From NCBI RefSeq assembly GCF_001678945.1, contig NZ_CP015124.1, forward strand, positions 3,448,001-3,512,000: a DNA stretch of 64,000 bases, given 5' to 3'. The stretch comes from Phaeobacter gallaeciensis (GTDB lineage: Bacteria > Pseudomonadota > Alphaproteobacteria > Rhodobacterales > Rhodobacteraceae). Made by a program: the position numbers and the translations under genes. How positions within the stretch are numbered: position 1 is the stretch's first letter; every line of letters starts with the position of its first letter. Below the pieces are notes generated by a model. The model worked only from the letters and a program-made list of their open reading frames with translations, did no database searches and was not told where the DNA came from. This document shows positions 40,240-50,971 of the stretch, in pieces.

Positions 40240-41274
40240 ATGATGAAACATACCCTGCTGGGCGCCGCGTTTTTTGCCGCGGCCACCGCATTGTCACCAC
40301 TGATGGCACAGGCGCAGGAGGTGACGCTGCGGCTGCACCAGTTCCTGCCGCCCCCCGCCACCGTACCAAAGATGATCCTGAAACCCTGGGGCGCGCAGGT
40401 GGAGGAAGCCTCTGGCGGGCGGATCAAGATTGAGCATTTCGATGCCATGTCGCTGGGCGGAACCCCGCCGGGTCTGATGGATCAGGCGGCTGATGGGGTC
40501 GCTGATATGGTGATGACCGTGGTGGGTTATACGCCCGGCCGCTTCCCCAAGACCGAAGTGTTCGAGCTGCCCTTCATGATGACCGATCCAGTGGCCACCT
40601 CGAAGGCCTTCATGGAGTTGGTTGAAACCGACCTGCAGGAAGGCGAGTACAAGGACGTCAAGGTGCTGGGCGCCTGGGTGCATGGCCCCGGCGTGATCCA
40701 CACCGAAAGCGGTGTGAGCAAGCTGGAAGACATGGAAGGGCAGACCCTGCGCGGTCCGACCCGGATCATCACCGATATGCTGAAGGAACTGGGCGCCACC
40801 CCAGTTGGCCTGCCGCTCCCCGCCATTCCCGAGGCGCTCTCCAAGGGCGTGATCAGCGGCACCGTGATCCCTTGGGAGGTCACTCCGGCGGTCAAGCTGA
40901 CCGATCTAGTGGAACACCACACCGAGTTCAGTGGCAAGGAGGCGCTTTATACCGCGACCATCGTGCTGGTGATGAACCGCGACAAGTACAACGCCCTGCC
41001 GGATGATCTGAAGGCTATTCTCGACGCGGAATCGGGCCAGAAACTTTCGGCCTTTGCTGCCAAGGTCATGCTGGAGCGCGATGCGCCGGGCCGCGAAATC
41101 GCCGAGGACAAGGGCAATGAGATCGTCGTTCTGGACGAGGCCGAAGTGGCCCGCTGGAAAGAAAAGGCGCAGCCTGTGATCGCCCGCTGGATTGATGAGG
41201 TCGGCAGCAAGGGCATCGACGGAGAAGCCCTGATTGAACAGGCCAAGGCGTTGATTGCCAAACACGGCGGATAA
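40240..41274 (+). CDS. TRAP transporter substrate-binding protein (DctP family), orphan
   Basis: 344 residues. A signal peptide (MMKHTLLGAAFFAAATALSPLMAQAQE) precedes a DctP-type periplasmic binding domain: VTLRLHQFLPPPATVPKMILKPWGAQVEEASGGRIKIEHFDAMSLG. Its own membrane subunits (DctQ/DctM) are absent; the only TRAP permease pair in the window is on the other strand at 44-47 kb and has its own binding protein. GGAGG precedes the start. It probably follows the P450 in one transcript (72-bp gap) and is closed by a terminator. A role in bringing the P450 substrate into the cell is an inference. Confidence 0.85.
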   Translation: MMKHTLLGAAFFAAATALSPLMAQAQEVTLRLHQFLPPPATVPKMILKPWGAQVEEASGGRIKIEHFDAMSLGGTPPGLMDQAADGVADMVMTVVGYTPGRFPKTEVFELPFMMTDPVATSKAFMELVETDLQEGEYKDVKVLGAWVHGPGVIHTESGVSKLEDMEGQTLRGPTRIITDMLKELGATPVGLPLPAIPEALSKGVISGTVIPWEVTPAVKLTDLVEHHTEFSGKEALYTATIVLVMNRDKYNALPDDLKAILDAESGQKLSAFAAKVMLERDAPGREIAEDKGNEIVVLDEAEVARWKEKAQPVIARWIDEVGSKGIDGEALIEQAKALIAKHGG

Positions 41275-42721: not shown

Positions 42722-43762
42722 TCAGGCCGCCGCCAGCAGCGGGCGGGCCTGGGCAAAGGACAACAGCCGGCGGCTGTCTTCGTCCCAGAGGTGCAGCCGC
42801 GCATTGGCCAGGCTTTCGCGGATGGTCATGCGGTTGCTTTCGGCCAGTTCCTGATGGTCGCGCAGCACTTCGGTCAGCCGGTAGAACGGGATACGGCTGT
42901 AAAGGTGATGCACGTGGTGGATGCCGATATTGGCGCTGAACCACTGTAGCACGGCGGGCAGCTGGTAGTAGGAACTGCCGTGCAGGGCGGAGTCATGCAG
43001 CTGCCAGTCTTCGTTGCTGTCCCAGTTGGTATGTTCGAACTGGTGCTGCACGTAGAACAGCCAGACGCCGATGGTGGCCGCCAGCAGGGTGGTCGGCAGG
43101 AAGATCAGCAGCAACGGTTGCCAGCCGCCGAAATACCAGATCGTCAGCAGCGCCGCCGCAATGGCCAGATTGGTGAGCATGGCGCTGACCCAGTATTTCG
43201 CACTGTCCATCAGTCCCAACGGCACCCGGTTTTGCAGCAGGAACAGATAGCTGGGGCCAAGGCCAAAAAGCACAAGTGGATTGCGATAAAGCCGGTAGAC
43301 AAGGCGCTGAAACGGACCAAGCGCGCGGTATTCGGCAACGGTCAGCGTGTGGACGTCGCCCATGCCGCGTTTGTCGAGGTTGCCGGTGGCGCTGTGGTGC
43401 ACCGAATGGGTGCGGCGCCAGACATCATAGGGCGTCAGTGTGACAACCCCCATGACGCGCCCGATCCAGTCGCTGAAGGTCCGGTTGGGGAAGAAGGCGC
43501 CATGGCCGCAGTCGTGCTGAATGGCGAAGAGCCGCAGCAGGAAGGCGGCGTTGAAAAGAGAAATGCCGAAGGCCAGCCAGTAGCTGACCGACAGGCTCCA
43601 CCAGGCCAGCGCCCAGAGAATCACGAAGGGAATGACGGTTGCACCCAGTTCAAAGGCGCTGCGCAGCTGGTTGGGATCCCGGTAGCCGGCAAGGGTTTTC
43701 ACCCAGTCGCGTGCAGGAGTTGCACCCCGAGGGGTGCTGTGTAGGTCGGTCGTGTCGGTCAT
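42722..43762 (-). CDS. Fatty acid desaturase
   Basis: 346 residues, membrane di-iron desaturase. Three histidine boxes are visible: HDCGHG (in AIQHDCGHGAFF), HSVHH (in WRRTHSVHHSATG) and the C-terminal HHVHH (in NIGIHHVHHLYSR). Several hydrophobic stretches lie between them. It should introduce a double bond into a membrane acyl chain or a related lipid, using electrons from a ferredoxin- or flavodoxin-type donor. The start at 43762 is the first ATG. It is monocistronic; the upstream region carries no recognised fatty-acid operator. Confidence 0.9.
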   Translation of the reverse strand: MTDTTDLHSTPRGATPARDWVKTLAGYRDPNQLRSAFELGATVIPFVILWALAWWSLSVSYWLAFGISLFNAAFLLRLFAIQHDCGHGAFFPNRTFSDWIGRVMGVVTLTPYDVWRRTHSVHHSATGNLDKRGMGDVHTLTVAEYRALGPFQRLVYRLYRNPLVLFGLGPSYLFLLQNRVPLGLMDSAKYWVSAMLTNLAIAAALLTIWYFGGWQPLLLIFLPTTLLAATIGVWLFYVQHQFEHTNWDSNEDWQLHDSALHGSSYYQLPAVLQWFSANIGIHHVHHLYSRIPFYRLTEVLRDHQELAESNRMTIRESLANARLHLWDEDSRRLLSFAQARPLLAAA

Positions 43763-44075: not shown

Positions 44076-45431
44076 TTAGCCGTAAACCAGGCGCGGAAGC
44101 CATGTGATGATCTCGGGGAAGACCATGCAGAGGATCAGGCCGAGGATCTGCAGGCCAAGGAAAGGCAGCGCCGATTTGAAAATATCCGTCATCGGGATTT
44201 CTGCCGGAGCCACGCCGCGCAGGTAGAACAGCGCATAGCCAAAGGGCGGCGACAGGAAGCTCATCTGCATGTTGACGAGGTAGAGCACCCCGAACCACAG
44301 CACCAGATCCGCCTCAGAGGTGAGGCCAAAGGGTTCAGGCCCCATCGCCTTGATGATCGGCACAAAGATCGGCACGCAGAGCAGCAGGATACCCACCCAG
44401 TCAAGGAACATGCCAAGGACCACCAGGACGATCATCATGATGATCAGGATACCCCAGGGACCAAAGCCGGTTGCCTCCAGCGCCGATTGCACGAACTGCT
44501 GGCCGCCTTCGAGGACGTAGAGACCGACAAAGATGGTGGCGCCGAACATGATCCAGATCACCATGGCGCTGGCCTTGAGTGTGCCGATCGAGGCTTCGCG
44601 CACGGTCTGCCAGTCCAGCTTGCGGTGGATGGCGGCGACTATGAAGGCACCGAAGGTGCCGATGCCGGCCGCCTCAACCGGGGTAGCAACACCGGTAAAG
44701 ATCACCCCCAGAACGATGACGATCAGAGCGATCGGCGCCGACATATTGCCCATCAGGCGCATCTTCTCTGCAAAGCTGACGCGTTCTTCCACCGGGATCG
44801 GCGGGCCAAGCTTGGGATTGATCGTAGAGCGCAGGATAACATAGAGCACATAGGTGCCCGACAGCATCAGCCCCGGAAACACCGCGCCGATGAACAGTTC
44901 GCCCACCGATTGCTCGGCCACCACGGCATAGATGATCGCCAGGATCGACGGTGGGATCAGGATGCCGAGCGTGCCGCCCGCCATGATCGACCCCATCGCG
45001 ATCTTCGGATCATAGCCGCGTTTCAGCATCGCGGGCAGCGCGATGATGCCCATGGTCACCACCGCAGCGCCGATGACGCCCACCATGGCCGCCAGAACGG
45101 TTGAGGCGATGATAGTCGCGGCGGCAAGGCCGCCTTTGACGCCGCCCAGCACCTTGTAGATCACATCGAACATGTCGTTGATGATCCCGGCCCGTTCCAG
45201 CATAGAGGCCATGAAGATAAAGAGTGGGATCGCCGAGAGCTGATAATTGGTCATCAGCGGGAAGATCCGGCTGGGCACGATATTCAGTGCCCTCTCATCG
45301 CCAAGCACATAGAGAAACACGCAGGCCAGACCGCCGGTGACAAAGGCCAGCGGCAGCCCCGCCAGCAAAAGCGCCAGCAGCGAGCCGAACATGATGAGTG
45401 TCAGCCACTCAATTCCGATTTCCAGACCCAT
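44076..45431 (-). CDS. dctM: TRAP transporter large permease DctM
   Basis: 451 residues of the DctM/4TM-large-subunit family, about 12 transmembrane helices. It starts MGLEIGIEWLTLIMFGSLLALLLAGLPLAFVTG and contains MASMLERAGIINDMFDVIYKVLGGVKGGLAAATIIASTVLAAMVG, the conserved helix-hairpin region. It forms the Na+-driven channel that accepts substrate from the periplasmic binding protein. The gene follows dctQ with only 3 bp between; a GAAGGGGG site lies within the end of dctQ. Closed by a terminator. Confidence 0.93.
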   Translation of the reverse strand: MGLEIGIEWLTLIMFGSLLALLLAGLPLAFVTGGLACVFLYVLGDERALNIVPSRIFPLMTNYQLSAIPLFIFMASMLERAGIINDMFDVIYKVLGGVKGGLAAATIIASTVLAAMVGVIGAAVVTMGIIALPAMLKRGYDPKIAMGSIMAGGTLGILIPPSILAIIYAVVAEQSVGELFIGAVFPGLMLSGTYVLYVILRSTINPKLGPPIPVEERVSFAEKMRLMGNMSAPIALIVIVLGVIFTGVATPVEAAGIGTFGAFIVAAIHRKLDWQTVREASIGTLKASAMVIWIMFGATIFVGLYVLEGGQQFVQSALEATGFGPWGILIIMMIVLVVLGMFLDWVGILLLCVPIFVPIIKAMGPEPFGLTSEADLVLWFGVLYLVNMQMSFLSPPFGYALFYLRGVAPAEIPMTDIFKSALPFLGLQILGLILCMVFPEIITWLPRLVYG

Positions 45432-45434
45432 GTC

Positions 45435-46757
45435 TTAGGCCCCCTTCACGATTGCGCGCACGTCCTGCGCAAGCTTGGAAATGCCCTGCAGAACCAAAAG
45501 CAGGCCGCCGATCACCATGACCCATTTCATCGGCCACAGCGGGATTTCCCATTCATTGAAGCTGATTTCGCCCCAGCGGATATTCGGATCGGTCCATTGC
45601 GCCAGGCTCATGCTGCCCAGCATTTCACCAAATCCGATATTGCCGCGCGCCCATTCCGAGATGACCCCGTTGCCGGTCGCCACCGCGTTTGCGTCCAGCG
45701 CGAACTTGTAGCCGGTGAAGAGCAGGGTGAAGGCGAAGATGAAGAAGAAGATCGAGGTAAACAGATCCGCCCAGGCCCGTTTCGGACGGCTGAGTGGCGC
45801 ATAGAAGATGTCGACGCGTACATGCGCCTCGGTCAGCATCGCATAAGAGCCGGCAATCAGGTACTGCATGCCGAACATCAGATACATCGCCTCGTGTGCC
45901 CAGTTGGTGGGCGAGCCGAAGACATAGCGGCTGATCACTTCGAAGTAATAGACGAAGACCGCGATTACCGCCCAATAGCTGACGAATTCACCCGCCATCA
46001 GGGATGTCCGGTCGATCCAGCCGGTCCGGCCCGTCGACACATGGCTGGAATCCTCGACCCGCTCAGATTCTTCCAGCGCCCGCAGGGCCCTTTCCGCTTC
46101 GCTTTCGGGTTCCTTCTCGGGCAGGTTCTGATTGGCGCGGCGCACCAGACCCGGCATCAGCACTGCATCGACCAGCATCGCCGCCAGCAGCACATAAAGC
46201 GCATAGGCGCCCACCTTGTTCCAGAAGGCCAGATTGTCGCCTGCCACTTCCAGCGCGGGGGTGGCGGTTTTCAGATCCTCGGTTGCCTGCGCGATCCTTT
46301 CGCGCCCGTCACTCAGCCGCTGTTCGGCGCGGGCGATGTTCTTTTCGGCGCGGCGTTTGGCAAAGGTGCCTTCTTCGGCCTCGGCCAGATCCGCGCGCAT
46401 CTTGGGCAGGTCCGCCTCGGCGGCTTCGATCCGGCCAGTTTCGCGCTCCAGCGTCCGTTCCGCCTGACGCACCACGTTGGAGGCATCCGACAGCACGCTG
46501 CGGGCTTCCTGGCCGTTGGAGTTTGAGATCAGGATCAGAATGAAGACCGGGATGAAGGCCAGGCCCATCAGGCTGCGCAGATAGAACCGGTGCAGCCCCA
46601 GCATGCCGCCGGTCACGAGAATGAAATAGCCAAGCGCGTTGGTATATTTGCTGGGGCCGGTCCGTGGCCGCCTGGCCAGAACCATGGCCACCAGCGGAAA
46701 GACGATCAGTCCCACCCAATAGGCCCAATGGGGCAAGGTGACATCGAGGCTGGGCAT
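45435..46757 (-). CDS. dctQ: TRAP small permease DctQ with N-terminal TM2 and coiled-coil extension
   Basis: 440 residues, far longer than ordinary DctQ proteins (about 160-220). The C-terminal third (about 250-435, LMAGEFVSYWAVIAVFVYYFEVISRYVFGSPTNWAHEAMYLMFGMQYLIAG) is a normal DctQ four-helix domain. The N-terminal half contains hydrophobic helices with a TM2-domain-like stretch (about 39-75: TNALGYFILVTGGMLGLHRFYLRSLMGLAFIPVFILIL, with the G-x-H-R-F-Y motif). A charged, heptad-rich coiled coil (about 86-170) and a further transmembrane helix (about 180-205) follow. The start at 46757 is after the hairpin. The extra half suggests regulation or assembly (inference). Confidence 0.85.
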   Translation of the reverse strand: MPSLDVTLPHWAYWVGLIVFPLVAMVLARRPRTGPSKYTNALGYFILVTGGMLGLHRFYLRSLMGLAFIPVFILILISNSNGQEARSVLSDASNVVRQAERTLERETGRIEAAEADLPKMRADLAEAEEGTFAKRRAEKNIARAEQRLSDGRERIAQATEDLKTATPALEVAGDNLAFWNKVGAYALYVLLAAMLVDAVLMPGLVRRANQNLPEKEPESEAERALRALEESERVEDSSHVSTGRTGWIDRTSLMAGEFVSYWAVIAVFVYYFEVISRYVFGSPTNWAHEAMYLMFGMQYLIAGSYAMLTEAHVRVDIFYAPLSRPKRAWADLFTSIFFFIFAFTLLFTGYKFALDANAVATGNGVISEWARGNIGFGEMLGSMSLAQWTDPNIRWGEISFNEWEIPLWPMKWVMVIGGLLLVLQGISKLAQDVRAIVKGA

Positions 46758-46851: not shown

Positions 46852-47949
46852 TTACAGATCCAGCGACATGCCTTCGGTCAGGGCCGGGTCCACATATCCA
46901 AGCGAGCCGGACTGCATGTAGTCGAGGATGGTCTTGAAAATGCGGGCGCTGGATTTGTCGCGGTTGGCGTATTTGTACCAGACCGGGACGGCGACCTCGG
47001 TCATCAGCTCCACATCGTCCTGGCTGAGGCGGGTAACCTCGGTTCCGTCGGCCTCGAACTTTTTCCAGGCTTCCTGGTCGGCGGCCTGGATCGCGGCGTG
47101 GTGCATGTCGGAATAGACGTGGGTCTCCATTTCGACGAACTGTTGCATCTGCGGCGACAGCGCGTTCCAGCTCTCCATGCCCACGGTCAGATCCATGATG
47201 TCCACCGGCTGGTAGAGCGACATGAAGCCCGGAGGACCCATGACGATATAGTCGGTGACCTGGCTGAAGCCGAGCGAGTAGTTCACTGCGGGGCCCACAT
47301 AGTCGGCCACGTCGATGGTGCCCTTTTCCAGCGCCGGGAAGATCTCCGAGCCTGGCAGAACCGTGGTTTCGGCGCCGATCTCGGTAAAGATCTCGGCGAC
47401 CATGCCGCCGGGCAGGCGCATCTTGCGGCCGCGGAAATCGTCGATCGAGCGGATCGGCACCTTGGAGTGGATGATATTCGGGCCGTGGTGGATCGGGCCG
47501 ACGAAATGCATGCCCTGCGCCTTGTAGAGCTCGCGCGCCATATCAAGGCCGCCAAGCCCATAGTAGAACACGTCATATTCATGCGGGTTGCGCAGCCCCA
47601 GCGGGAAGGACGACAGGAACACCGCCGCCGGGATGATGCCCTGGGCATAGATGGTAAAGGGGTTCACCGCGTCGAGAACCCCATTCTTTACCGCGTCATA
47701 GAGCTGAAAGTCCCCGACGACGTCATTGGCGCCAAAGGGTTGAAAGGCCAGCTCACCGCCGGTCTTTTCGACGATGCTACCGCACCAGTCCTTGAAGATC
47801 TGCAGACCTGCACCGCCCGGCCAGGATGTCTGCACCTTCCAGGTTTTTGTGTGACTCGCCGCCGTTGCGATATGGGGTGCGGCCAGTCCCGCTGCACCCA
47901 GACCGGCAAGACCTGTCAGCGCGCCGCGGCGCGTTACGATTTTTGACAT
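46852..47949 (-). CDS. TRAP transporter substrate-binding protein (TakP-like)
   Basis: 365 residues with a Tat-type signal (TRRGALTGLAGLGAAGLAAPHIATA; twin Arg in RRGALTG). The mature protein starts KTWKVQTSWPGGAGLQIFKDWCGSIVEKTGGEL, as in the TakP/2-oxo-acid and mannitol/chloroaromatic TRAP subfamily. It has a mixed alpha/beta fold with VPIRSIDDFRGRKMRLPGGMVAEIFTEIGAETTVLPGSEIFPALEKGTIDVADYVGP, the typical substrate-cleft helix. It is the first gene of the operon with dctQ and dctM. Substrates of this subgroup are usually organic acids; which one is not readable. The ATG at 47949 has GGGAGG upstream. Confidence 0.9.
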   Translation of the reverse strand: MSKIVTRRGALTGLAGLGAAGLAAPHIATAASHTKTWKVQTSWPGGAGLQIFKDWCGSIVEKTGGELAFQPFGANDVVGDFQLYDAVKNGVLDAVNPFTIYAQGIIPAAVFLSSFPLGLRNPHEYDVFYYGLGGLDMARELYKAQGMHFVGPIHHGPNIIHSKVPIRSIDDFRGRKMRLPGGMVAEIFTEIGAETTVLPGSEIFPALEKGTIDVADYVGPAVNYSLGFSQVTDYIVMGPPGFMSLYQPVDIMDLTVGMESWNALSPQMQQFVEMETHVYSDMHHAAIQAADQEAWKKFEADGTEVTRLSQDDVELMTEVAVPVWYKYANRDKSSARIFKTILDYMQSGSLGYVDPALTEGMSLDL

Positions 47950-48424
47950 GATTTTTTTCCTCCCTAAACCTGTCTTGCGACAGTTCCGAACCCGCTTCCT
48001 CCTGCAGGTTCTTGAATATGTTAGGCGGGGAAGTACAAATTTTCAAAATCATATATGTTGTTTTTCGCAAGGGGATGGATAACGCTCGGGTAAGGATTTG
48101 ATTCAACTGCGGGAATACCGTTCCTTCCGGTACGCGACCGCGGACTGTATTTTTTGTCGGTGTTTCCCTTGGGTCACTTTGCACAGGTTTTATCGGCATG
48201 GGAGCGCGTGTTCAGCCATATTGTCCTTGCTCCCAGGGGGCGGCTGTGCTGTTGCGGCGGCCAGATGGCGTACCGCCAAAAGGAGAGCGGACGTCCGTTG
48301 GGTAGGGTGAAGGTGCAACGGGGATGTTTATATTTCTACCGTTAAGAGCTATTGAACCACTTAAGGCCATAAGGGGAATTGCCGGTTGTTTTGCGGCACC
48401 CATTGCAATTTTAAGAGGCTTTTG
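47950..48424. other. 475-bp divergent control region, TRAP operon / hybrid kinase
   Basis: No gene seen. An AT-rich stretch (about 48025-48060) is a likely promoter for the TRAP operon. A second AT-rich patch (about 48330-48370) probably serves the kinase gene. A dyad TACCG/CGGTA lies around 48117-48142. Confidence 0.55.
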
Positions 48425-50971
48425 ATGGTCGTGAGTTCCAATACACGTGCAGATTTGCGCCGTGTGGCCAGGGGAGTGTCTAATCGCTCTTACCTGTCGG
48501 TGCTTGTGACCATTGTGGTACTAGTGGGCGCCTCGATATTTGCCGAGCAGCAGAACTCCACCATCTACAGCCAGCGTCTGCGCGCGGATGTGCAAAGCGA
48601 GGTCGGGTTGATCCGATCCCGGCTTGAGGGCGCGCTCAATGCCGATATTCAGTTGGTGCAGGGCCTGGTTGCAGTGATGTCGACCGAGCCGGACATGACA
48701 CAGCAGCGGTTTTCCGATCTGAGCGCGCAGATGATCGGGCGGGACGGGCAGATTACCCATCTTGCCGCGGCTCCGGATCTGGTGATCTCCCTCATTCACC
48801 CGCTGAAGGGCAACGAGGCGGCGCTGGGCCTTGATTACAACCAGCACAAGGCGCAGCGCGCGGCCGCTGAGCAGGCGCGCGATACTGGCAAAATCGTTCT
48901 GGCCGGACCGGTCAAATTGGTACAGGGCGGCGAGGCCTTCGTGGCGCGCTTCCCTATTTTCACCTCGCAGAACGGTCCCTTGCGCTTCTGGGGTATTTTG
49001 TCAGCAGTTATCAGTGCCGATGGGTTATACGAGACCGTTGGTCTAACCGACCCGGATCTTGGCCTCGATATCGCGATCCTTGGAAAAGACGGCAAGGGCG
49101 CGGCTGGCGGTCAGTTCTTTGGCTCCGAAGAGGTGATGGAAAACAACCCGGTGCGCACCGATGTGTCGCTGGCCGAAGGCAATTGGGTGCTGGCCGCCAC
49201 GCCGAAGGGCGGTTGGGAGGTGATGCCGGACAACCTCTGGACCTTGCGGTTGCTGCTGCTCGCAGGCGGGCTGCTGGTCCTTGTGCCCACCGCGCTTGCC
49301 ACCCGCATGGCCGATGCCCGCAGCCACGCGATCGAGAAACTCAAACGCCGCGAACGGGATCTGGAAACCCTTTCCCGGCGTCTGGAGATTGCCGTTGAGA
49401 CCTCCAAGATCGGCATCTGGGAGCTGGACGCGGAGACCGGTGAACTGATCTGGGATCGGCGCATGTCCGACCTTTATGGGATCGAGGCGCTGAACGGGAA
49501 AATCAATTTCTCCGAGTGGAAGAAGTGCCTGCATCCGGACGATTGCCAGCAAGCCGTGGAAACCTTCTGGCGCGCTACGCACGATGGCAAGAATTACCTC
49601 TCGGAATACCGCATCTTGCTAGAGAACGGCGAGCAAAAGCATATCCGGGCGCTGGGCTGCGCCTTCTCCGATGCCTCTGGGCGACTGCGCATGATCGGGG
49701 TCGACTGGGATGTCTCTGGCGATGTGCACCTGCGCGAAGAGCTGATCCGTGCCAACCGGGCTCTGACCCAGCGCAACAGCGAGCTCCACGAGGCCAAGCT
49801 CAACGCCGAACAGGCGGACCGGGCGAAATCGGAATTCCTCGCCAATATGAGCCATGAAATCCGCACACCGATGAATGGCATCCTTGGCATGGCGGATCTT
49901 CTGGCCGAGGCGGAACTGCCAGATGAAGAGCAGCTTTATGTGGAAACCATCCGCGATTCCTCCAATGCTCTGCTGAAAATCATCAACGACATTCTTGATC
50001 TCTCGCGCCTTGAAGCCGGCAAGCTGGACATAACCCCGACGGATTTCGATCTGCGCAGCTGTATCGTGCAGGCAGTGAACCTTCTGCGGCCCAAAGCCAA
50101 CGGCAAGGGGCTGACGGTTGAGGTTGAGATCGACGAAACCCTGCCGCAGCGCATGCGCGGTGACGATGGTCGCTTGCGCCAGATCCTGGTCAATCTTGTG
50201 GGCAACGCGGTCAAGTTCACGGCACAGGGCGGGGTTGTCGTGCGTGTCACCAGTGATCCGGAGTCGCCCTACCGGCTCGTGGTTGAGGTCGAGGATACCG
50301 GGATCGGCATTTCCGAAAGCCAAGCCGAGCATATCTTTGACCGTTTTGCGCAGGCGGACGCGGCCACCACCCGTGCCTTTGGGGGCACCGGCCTTGGTCT
50401 GACCATCTCCAGCATCCTGGCCGAGCGGATGGGCGGCACCATTTCGCTGCAGCCGAAACAAGCCGCCGGGCAGGGCTCCTGTTTCCGGCTCGAAGTCCAA
50501 CTGGAGTCGGAACAAACCCCAGCGGCTCAGCAGAAAACGGAAACCGCTCCTGCGGTGGCAACCGAGGTTCTGACCGGCGCCCGGATCGTGCTGGCTGAGG
50601 ACAACCGGACCAACCGGCTGCTGATCCAGAAATATTTCGCCGGGCTTCCTGTTGAGTGCGTCGAGGCCGAGAATGGCCGCAAAGCAGTTGATCTCTGCCG
50701 GGAGCAAATGCCGGATTTCGTGCTGATGGACATGTCCATGCCGGAACTGGACGGGGTCGAGGCGACAAGGGAAATCCGCGCTCTGGACGGCCCGCAACCG
50801 GTGATCGTAGCGCTGACTGCCAATGCCTTTGACAGCCACCGCACAGAATGTCTGGAGGCGGGAATGGATCATTTCCTGCAGAAACCGATCCGCAAGGCTG
50901 TCCTTCTCCAGACGCTGGCTACTTTGCAGATGGCCCGCATGCCGGAGGCCGAAGAAGTGCGGGTCGGATAG
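48425..50971 (+). CDS. CHASE-PAS hybrid histidine kinase with receiver
   Basis: 848 residues. A first transmembrane helix (22-40) and a second (about 272-295) flank a periplasmic CHASE sensor domain (about 41-270, including VQGLVAVMSTEPDMTQQRFSDLS). Then come a PAS domain (about 320-440), HisKA with the phospho-acceptor His477 (NMSHEIRTPMNG), HATPase (about 575-695, EDTGIGIS and FGGTGLGL) and a receiver domain (about 720-840) with the phospho-Asp769 in FVLMDMSMPELDG. The receiver lacks a following HPt domain, so a separate HPt must complete the relay. AAGAGG precedes the ATG. It faces away from the TRAP operon; a regulatory link is an inference. Confidence 0.92.
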   Translation: MVVSSNTRADLRRVARGVSNRSYLSVLVTIVVLVGASIFAEQQNSTIYSQRLRADVQSEVGLIRSRLEGALNADIQLVQGLVAVMSTEPDMTQQRFSDLSAQMIGRDGQITHLAAAPDLVISLIHPLKGNEAALGLDYNQHKAQRAAAEQARDTGKIVLAGPVKLVQGGEAFVARFPIFTSQNGPLRFWGILSAVISADGLYETVGLTDPDLGLDIAILGKDGKGAAGGQFFGSEEVMENNPVRTDVSLAEGNWVLAATPKGGWEVMPDNLWTLRLLLLAGGLLVLVPTALATRMADARSHAIEKLKRRERDLETLSRRLEIAVETSKIGIWELDAETGELIWDRRMSDLYGIEALNGKINFSEWKKCLHPDDCQQAVETFWRATHDGKNYLSEYRILLENGEQKHIRALGCAFSDASGRLRMIGVDWDVSGDVHLREELIRANRALTQRNSELHEAKLNAEQADRAKSEFLANMSHEIRTPMNGILGMADLLAEAELPDEEQLYVETIRDSSNALLKIINDILDLSRLEAGKLDITPTDFDLRSCIVQAVNLLRPKANGKGLTVEVEIDETLPQRMRGDDGRLRQILVNLVGNAVKFTAQGGVVVRVTSDPESPYRLVVEVEDTGIGISESQAEHIFDRFAQADAATTRAFGGTGLGLTISSILAERMGGTISLQPKQAAGQGSCFRLEVQLESEQTPAAQQKTETAPAVATEVLTGARIVLAEDNRTNRLLIQKYFAGLPVECVEAENGRKAVDLCREQMPDFVLMDMSMPELDGVEATREIRALDGPQPVIVALTANAFDSHRTECLEAGMDHFLQKPIRKAVLLQTLATLQMARMPEAEEVRVG

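Follow-up and report, generated by a model that had tools for sequence, protein, structure and literature searches.

A TRAP transporter small permease with a TM2 module and a predicted helical-hairpin stalk ahead of its DctQ domain

Results

A TRAP operon with an enlarged small permease

The stretch of DNA analysed here (the window, 64,000 nucleotides of the Phaeobacter gallaeciensis genome) carries a TRAP operon in which a small permease (Q) is encoded together with a DctP-type receptor (P) and a large permease, DctM (Table 1). The Pfam DctQ model (PF04290) matched residues 269-369 of Q with 64.2 bits against a cut-off of 28.3, and about 245 extra N-terminal residues lie ahead of the DctQ domain. 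Translation from the ATG at 46757 gives 440 residues, in agreement with the N-termini of the relatives, which share a conserved MPxLDFTLPHW; a longer GTG start (457 aa) is therefore unlikely. Fifteen DctQ matches in the genome exceed the cut-off, and an open frame of 480 aa was seen only at the Q locus, the remaining matches sitting in frames of 169-326 aa. A first-pass annotation of this DNA had described Q as a DctQ protein of unusual length, 440 residues, fused to a TM2 domain and a coiled coil, and this was borne out by the PF04290 match, the AlphaFold models and the relatives.

Table 1 Genes of the TRAP operon and parts of the small permease, with positions in the window
Feature	Position	Strand	Basis
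TRAP small permease (Q) gene, TM2-stalk-DctQ	45435..46757	(-)	440 aa ORF; Pfam; relatives
N-terminal LPHWxYW helix (residues 10-28)	46674..46730	(-)	invariant L8, P9, H10, W11, Y13; AlphaFold helix
TM2 module, helices 1 and 2 with the GGxxGxHRFY motif between them (residues 39-79)	46521..46643	(-)	Pfam TM2; invariant residues
Predicted helical-hairpin stalk (coiled coil; residues 80-180, tip 127-131)	46218..46520	(-)	AlphaFold; length constraint
Probable third helix of TM2 module, DxxLxPGxVRRAN motif (residues 181-212)	46122..46217	(-)	reciprocal third-helix HMMs
Acidic linker of variable length (residues 213-245)	46023..46121	(-)	length 25-40
DctQ domain (residues 246-440)	45438..46022	(-)	PF04290
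DctQ TM3-TM4 loop insertion, about 36 residues (355-400), WTDPNIRWGEISFNEW motif	45558..45695	(-)	84 of 103 relatives
TRAP solute-binding protein (P), DctP, TTHA0766-like lactate receptor	46852..47949	(-)	2zzv, E 1.3e-111
TRAP large permease (DctM)	44076..45431	(-)	PF06808 281.9 bits; TIGR00786 316.9 bits

A scan of the whole collection found 193 stretches encoding a relative of Q. The best 80 of them matched over about the full length, with 60-90% identity to Q. All 80 loci had the order P-Q-M, with DctM 3' of Q, and at 79 a P of near full length stood beside Q.

The receptor points to lactate

P is a close homologue of TTHA0766, the calcium-lactate receptor of Thermus thermophilus (2zzv), which it matched with 376.6 bits over 360 residues (E 1.3e-111), whereas TakP (2hzk) gave 87.4 bits. 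The operon had at first been taken for one of the TakPQM (alpha-keto acid) type, a label that we dropped, its receptor being far nearer to TTHA0766. In eLACCO1, a sensor derived from TTHA0766, the Tyr80Phe exchange lowered the affinity for lactate from 4.1 uM to 3.9 mM, and Asp444Asn abolished binding (PMC8648760). By our own mapping, in which the chromophore numbering was allowed for, Tyr80 and Asp444 align to Y101 and D216 of P, and both residues are conserved. The TTHA0766-like receptor and these conserved contacts make lactate the best guess for the substrate, so that by sequence the operon would be a lactate-type TRAP importer. Identity to the operon's P was 76-97% across the 79 loci, 58-81% in more distant TM2 forms and 50-55% in short forms of Q (described below). 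Among the flanking genes of the 80 loci, none recurred at more than nine and no recurrent lactate-catabolism neighbour was found, so the flanks give no metabolic context for lactate.

Several further genes of the window lie near the operon. A second DctP-type receptor (40240-41274, plus strand), with 25% identity to the operon's P, has a P450 gene on one side and, on the other, a DMT-type exporter-like ORF; the ORF list for 40-52 kb shows no Q or M adjoining it. Downstream of DctM lies a fatty acid desaturase gene (42722-43762, minus strand), found next to the operon only in L039 and L040, the two closest relatives. A gene divergent from the operon (48386-50971, plus strand) codes for a hybrid histidine kinase that combines CHASE, PAS, HisKA and HATPase domains with a receiver domain; homologues were detected close to the operon in just about 5 of 80 relatives, two of these being close ones.

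The extension is an old feature of Alphaproteobacteria

At least 90 distinct relatives preserve the extension from end to end, which upheld the first-pass proposal on the very point set beforehand for its refutation. The bearers belong to Roseobacteraceae, Paracoccaceae, Stappiaceae, Phyllobacteriaceae and other alphaproteobacterial families. The long form occurred in 21 of 198 genomes of the same family (loci L009-L029), with matches beginning at residue 1, and in 15 of 385 genomes of the class, spread over many families; in a phylum survey of 398 genomes, extension-bearing forms were found only within Alphaproteobacteria. This distribution and conservation mark the extension as an old feature under selection in Alphaproteobacteria. 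Across 90 aligned full-length sequences, the mean majority fraction was 0.85 for DctQ (where 102 of 195 columns are conserved at 95% or more), 0.75 for residues 1-82, 0.61 for the coiled coil and 0.55 for the linker. The linker is acidic, with on average 9.5 D+E versus 3.2 K+R in residues 213-247. At the other end of the extension stands the LPHWxYW helix, an element absent from the first-pass description, which is the sole extra element in short relatives without TM2 (L134, L135, L145, L153, L221-L223).

In the literature searched (papers open without subscription), we found no description of a TRAP transporter with a TM2 domain or of a DctQ protein with a coiled coil. The architecture of Q is a new form of a known kind of transporter.

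The extension belongs to the TM2 family

Q carries the motif GG..G.H[RK]FY between two membrane helices, and in this part its relatives are invariant at G50, G51, G54, H56, R57 and G65 and nearly so at Y59. The Pfam TM2 model (PF05154) matched residues 44-75 of Q with 16.9 bits, under the curated cut-off of 27.9, while two shorter relatives of the same architecture passed it (L170, 35.4 bits; L173, 28.7 bits) and L175, L176 and L177 reached 25-27 bits, below it. In an alignment of the extension, 24 of the 27 members matched TM2 at E<=1 (best E 7e-7), and the extension profile also retrieved stand-alone TM2 proteins of 119-157 aa. As judged from these matches, the extension belongs to TM2 at the level of the family, though Q itself scores below the threshold, so the original TM2 call stood for the family and not for the single protein.

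The stalk lies within a three-helix TM2 module

In this class, stand-alone TM2 proteins terminate in a third helix, for example 'IWVLVDAFLIPGIVRRANQAL' in L159. Its counterpart in Q lies beyond the coiled coil, at residues 192-212 ('AAMLVDAVLMPGLVRRANQNL'), where D197 is invariant in the aligned relatives. An HMM of the third helix was built from five stand-alone TM2 proteins, three being near-copies, and used to search 12,064 ORFs. Most of the TM2 proteins came first, and next in rank were TRAP Q proteins at this helix, with up to 25.8 bits; in this small set, rich in family copies, Q scored 18.7 bits (E 7e-4) and the best unrelated ORF 7.1 bits. With the reverse HMM, built from the TRAP helix, stand-alone TM2 proteins took the top six places among non-TRAP matches, with 29.3 to 13.9 bits, and the next unrelated ORF reached 8.4 bits. 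These reciprocal matches argue that the helix after the coiled coil is the third helix of the same TM2 module, not a separate element as first described. The coiled coil would then be an insertion within the TM2 module and not a domain of its own that follows a TM2 hairpin. When the stalk was excised in silico and the product rescored with Pfam TM2, it gave 19.5 bits, equal to a control join to a DctQ helix; as the excision brought no gain over the control, the claim of a split TM2 module is carried by the third-helix models.

Stand-alone alphaproteobacterial TM2 proteins (PF05154; L159, L138, L161) have the same GG/GW..G.HRFY helix pair and third helix, DxxLIPGxVRRAN. In contrast to them, Q has TM2 built into a transporter subunit, and the loop between helices 2 and 3 of Q-type proteins is a helical hairpin of 67 or 101 residues. 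Profile comparisons thus showed Q as a DctQ core whose N-terminal linker apparently received a three-helix TM2 module, with the helix 2-helix 3 loop drawn out into the hairpin. A stand-alone TM2 protein compared by sequence with solved structures gave no match.

A predicted hairpin of near-fixed length

AlphaFold models of the whole protein and of the isolated module agreed on helices at residues 10-28, 40-53, 55-59, 63-126 and 132-210. Mean pLDDT was 71 for the whole protein, in which the DctQ part was weak, and 87.9 for the isolated module, in which the two long helices were mostly above 87. These two helices, together with a hydrophobic period of 3.54 residues in the first arm, confirmed the coiled coil noticed at first. 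In the models, TM2 helix 2 runs unbroken into the first arm and the second arm returns into helix 3. Two such continuous helices point to a hairpin with about 50 residues per arm, predicted to form a stiff stalk of about 7 nm (at 1.5 A per residue) continuous with two membrane helices. In a Foldseek search of the PDB, neither model gave a match below E 0.001, and VIA-align returned just generic helical hairpins with Z of 10-11, within the chance range for long helices.

Among 103 proteins, the stalk has 101 residues in 78, 102-105 in 13 and 66-67 in 12; exactly 101 or 67 residues were counted in 89 of the 103, while the adjoining linker varies from 25 to 40. A near-fixed length combined with a drifting sequence suggests selection on the reach of the stalk.

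Short relatives lack the TM2 module

The same DctQ subfamily contains proteins of 233-270 aa and DctQM fusions that have the LPHW helix without TM2 (L145, L153, L220-L223, L134, L135). Between these and the 440-aa proteins with a 101-residue stalk are intermediate relatives of 369-410 aa, in most of which the stalk has 67 residues. Judged by open-frame length, the TM2 form accounted for 14 of the 17 subfamily proteins in the class survey. The short lactate-type Q proteins (L145, L153, L220-L223) and fused DctQM proteins (L134, L135) share with Q the LPHWxYW helix, the DctQ subfamily and a TTHA0766-type P, but have neither TM2 module nor stalk. Both fused proteins (L134 in G523, L135 in G345) keep the LPHW helix and lack TM2, and G345 has one fused and one unfused copy of the short subfamily.

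When Q and M were combined in one tree, the short forms grouped with an SH-aLRT of 99, and the TM2 forms as one group were not rejected (p-AU 0.61). The DctQ-domain tree likewise placed the short forms together, the outgroup of both trees being too distant to polarise gain versus loss of TM2.

Topology and charge point to a periplasmic stalk

SiaQ of Photobacterium profundum (7qha) shares with Q the DctQ core (PF04290), four predicted core helices, the P-Q-M operon and a DctM neighbour; in contrast to SiaQ, Q adds about 245 N-terminal residues with the TM2 module and stalk. In SiaQM, two loops of SiaQ face the periplasm and its TM2-TM3 linker faces the cytoplasm (PMC9971032), so the N-terminus of the DctQ domain should be cytoplasmic. 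One crossing, by helix 3, would then bring the stalk into the periplasm, where we infer that it stands from both the DctQ topology and the charges. Three loops would then lie in the cytoplasm; their mean K+R was 4.3 (behind the N-terminal helix), 2.05 (the HRFY loop) and 2.2 (behind helix 3), against 0 for the N-tail. This pattern is compatible with an N-out first helix and a putative re-entrant course of TM2 helix 1, which is about 16 residues long, and the positive loop behind the N-terminal helix fits only with such a re-entrant helix. The same topology would suit the short forms, in which DctQ is preceded by just the first helix and a mostly basic stretch.

Compared with its short-loop relatives, Q has about 36 more residues in the TM3-TM4 loop. 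This loop was short in all 12 short-stalk proteins and in 7 long-stalk proteins, and had about 36 extra residues in the other 84 long-stalk proteins; among the 103 relatives the enlarged loop was never paired with a short stalk.

Discussion

In TRAP transporters, Q enlarges the elevator scaffold, its periplasmic loops are predicted to touch the receptor, which takes up its docked position over the scaffold (PMC9971032). In the protein described here, the TM2 module would add membrane helices, enlarging the rigid scaffold that Q gives the elevator-type M, and the stalk may form a fixed-height strut on the receptor side, beside the entrance. Such a strut could keep the periplasmic lactate receptor in place, or in the right orientation, at hand-over, with the enlarged TM3-TM4 loop on the same side. 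The account as a whole, in which Q belongs to a lactate-type TRAP transporter, has the architecture, homology and periplasmic stalk position set out above and serves most likely as scaffold or strut, is in our view probably right. Its least certain step is receptor docking by the stalk, which, taken alone, is a tentative proposal; even so, we rank holding or orienting of the receptor above sensing, oligomerisation and envelope anchoring as the likeliest single function. That TM2 module and fixed-length periplasmic stalk together make a built-in docking strut, so that the TRAP transporter would have its own receptor-capture device, is somewhat unlikely.

The extension could instead be a sensor or regulator that gates the transporter, with TM2 sensing the membrane or lipid state or the stalk a periplasmic signal. 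The TM2 signature residues are strongly conserved, so this part probably has some specific task, and a CHASE-PAS hybrid histidine kinase is encoded divergently beside the operon. Yet homologues of this kinase were detected near the operon in only about 5 of 80 relatives and no ligand-binding domain is recognisable in the extension, and we consider sensing unlikely.

Pairing of coiled coils between transporters, which would oligomerise them, is brought to mind by the presence of a coiled coil and by other elevator transporters, which are oligomers (PMC9971032). The antiparallel hairpin predicted by AlphaFold is self-contained within one chain, however, so such pairing is unnecessary, and Q is thought to allow monomeric function of TRAP transporters (PMC9971032); this reading thus seems quite improbable. 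The same low standing applies to a stalk that anchors the transporter to another part of the envelope (peptidoglycan, porin or outer membrane) and not to the receptor. A near-fixed length of about 7 nm would suit an anchor, but it has no known partner, the other fixed length, 67 residues, which is seen in further families, would demand a different reach, and a conserved extra gene beside the operon was not found at the 80 loci. A cytoplasmic coiled coil is very unlikely: although the topology of the stalk was deduced indirectly, this placement requires an inverted DctQ or a helix 3 that does not cross the membrane, yet helix 3, with a mean KD of 1.58 across 23 residues, is hydrophobic and leads into VRRAN.

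If the docking-strut reading is true, it would give a bacterial TM2 module a first clear biochemical role. The two discrete stalk lengths offer deletable, length-tunable Q variants for probing receptor engagement and the need for Q, and the bacterial TM2 family gains a physical partner with a measurable activity, transport. Elsewhere, eight TM2 matches lie on one strand within about 5 kb of an alphaproteobacterial contig (genome G303, contig C14, 855-5500; L164, L179, L184), apparently as tandem TM2 genes.
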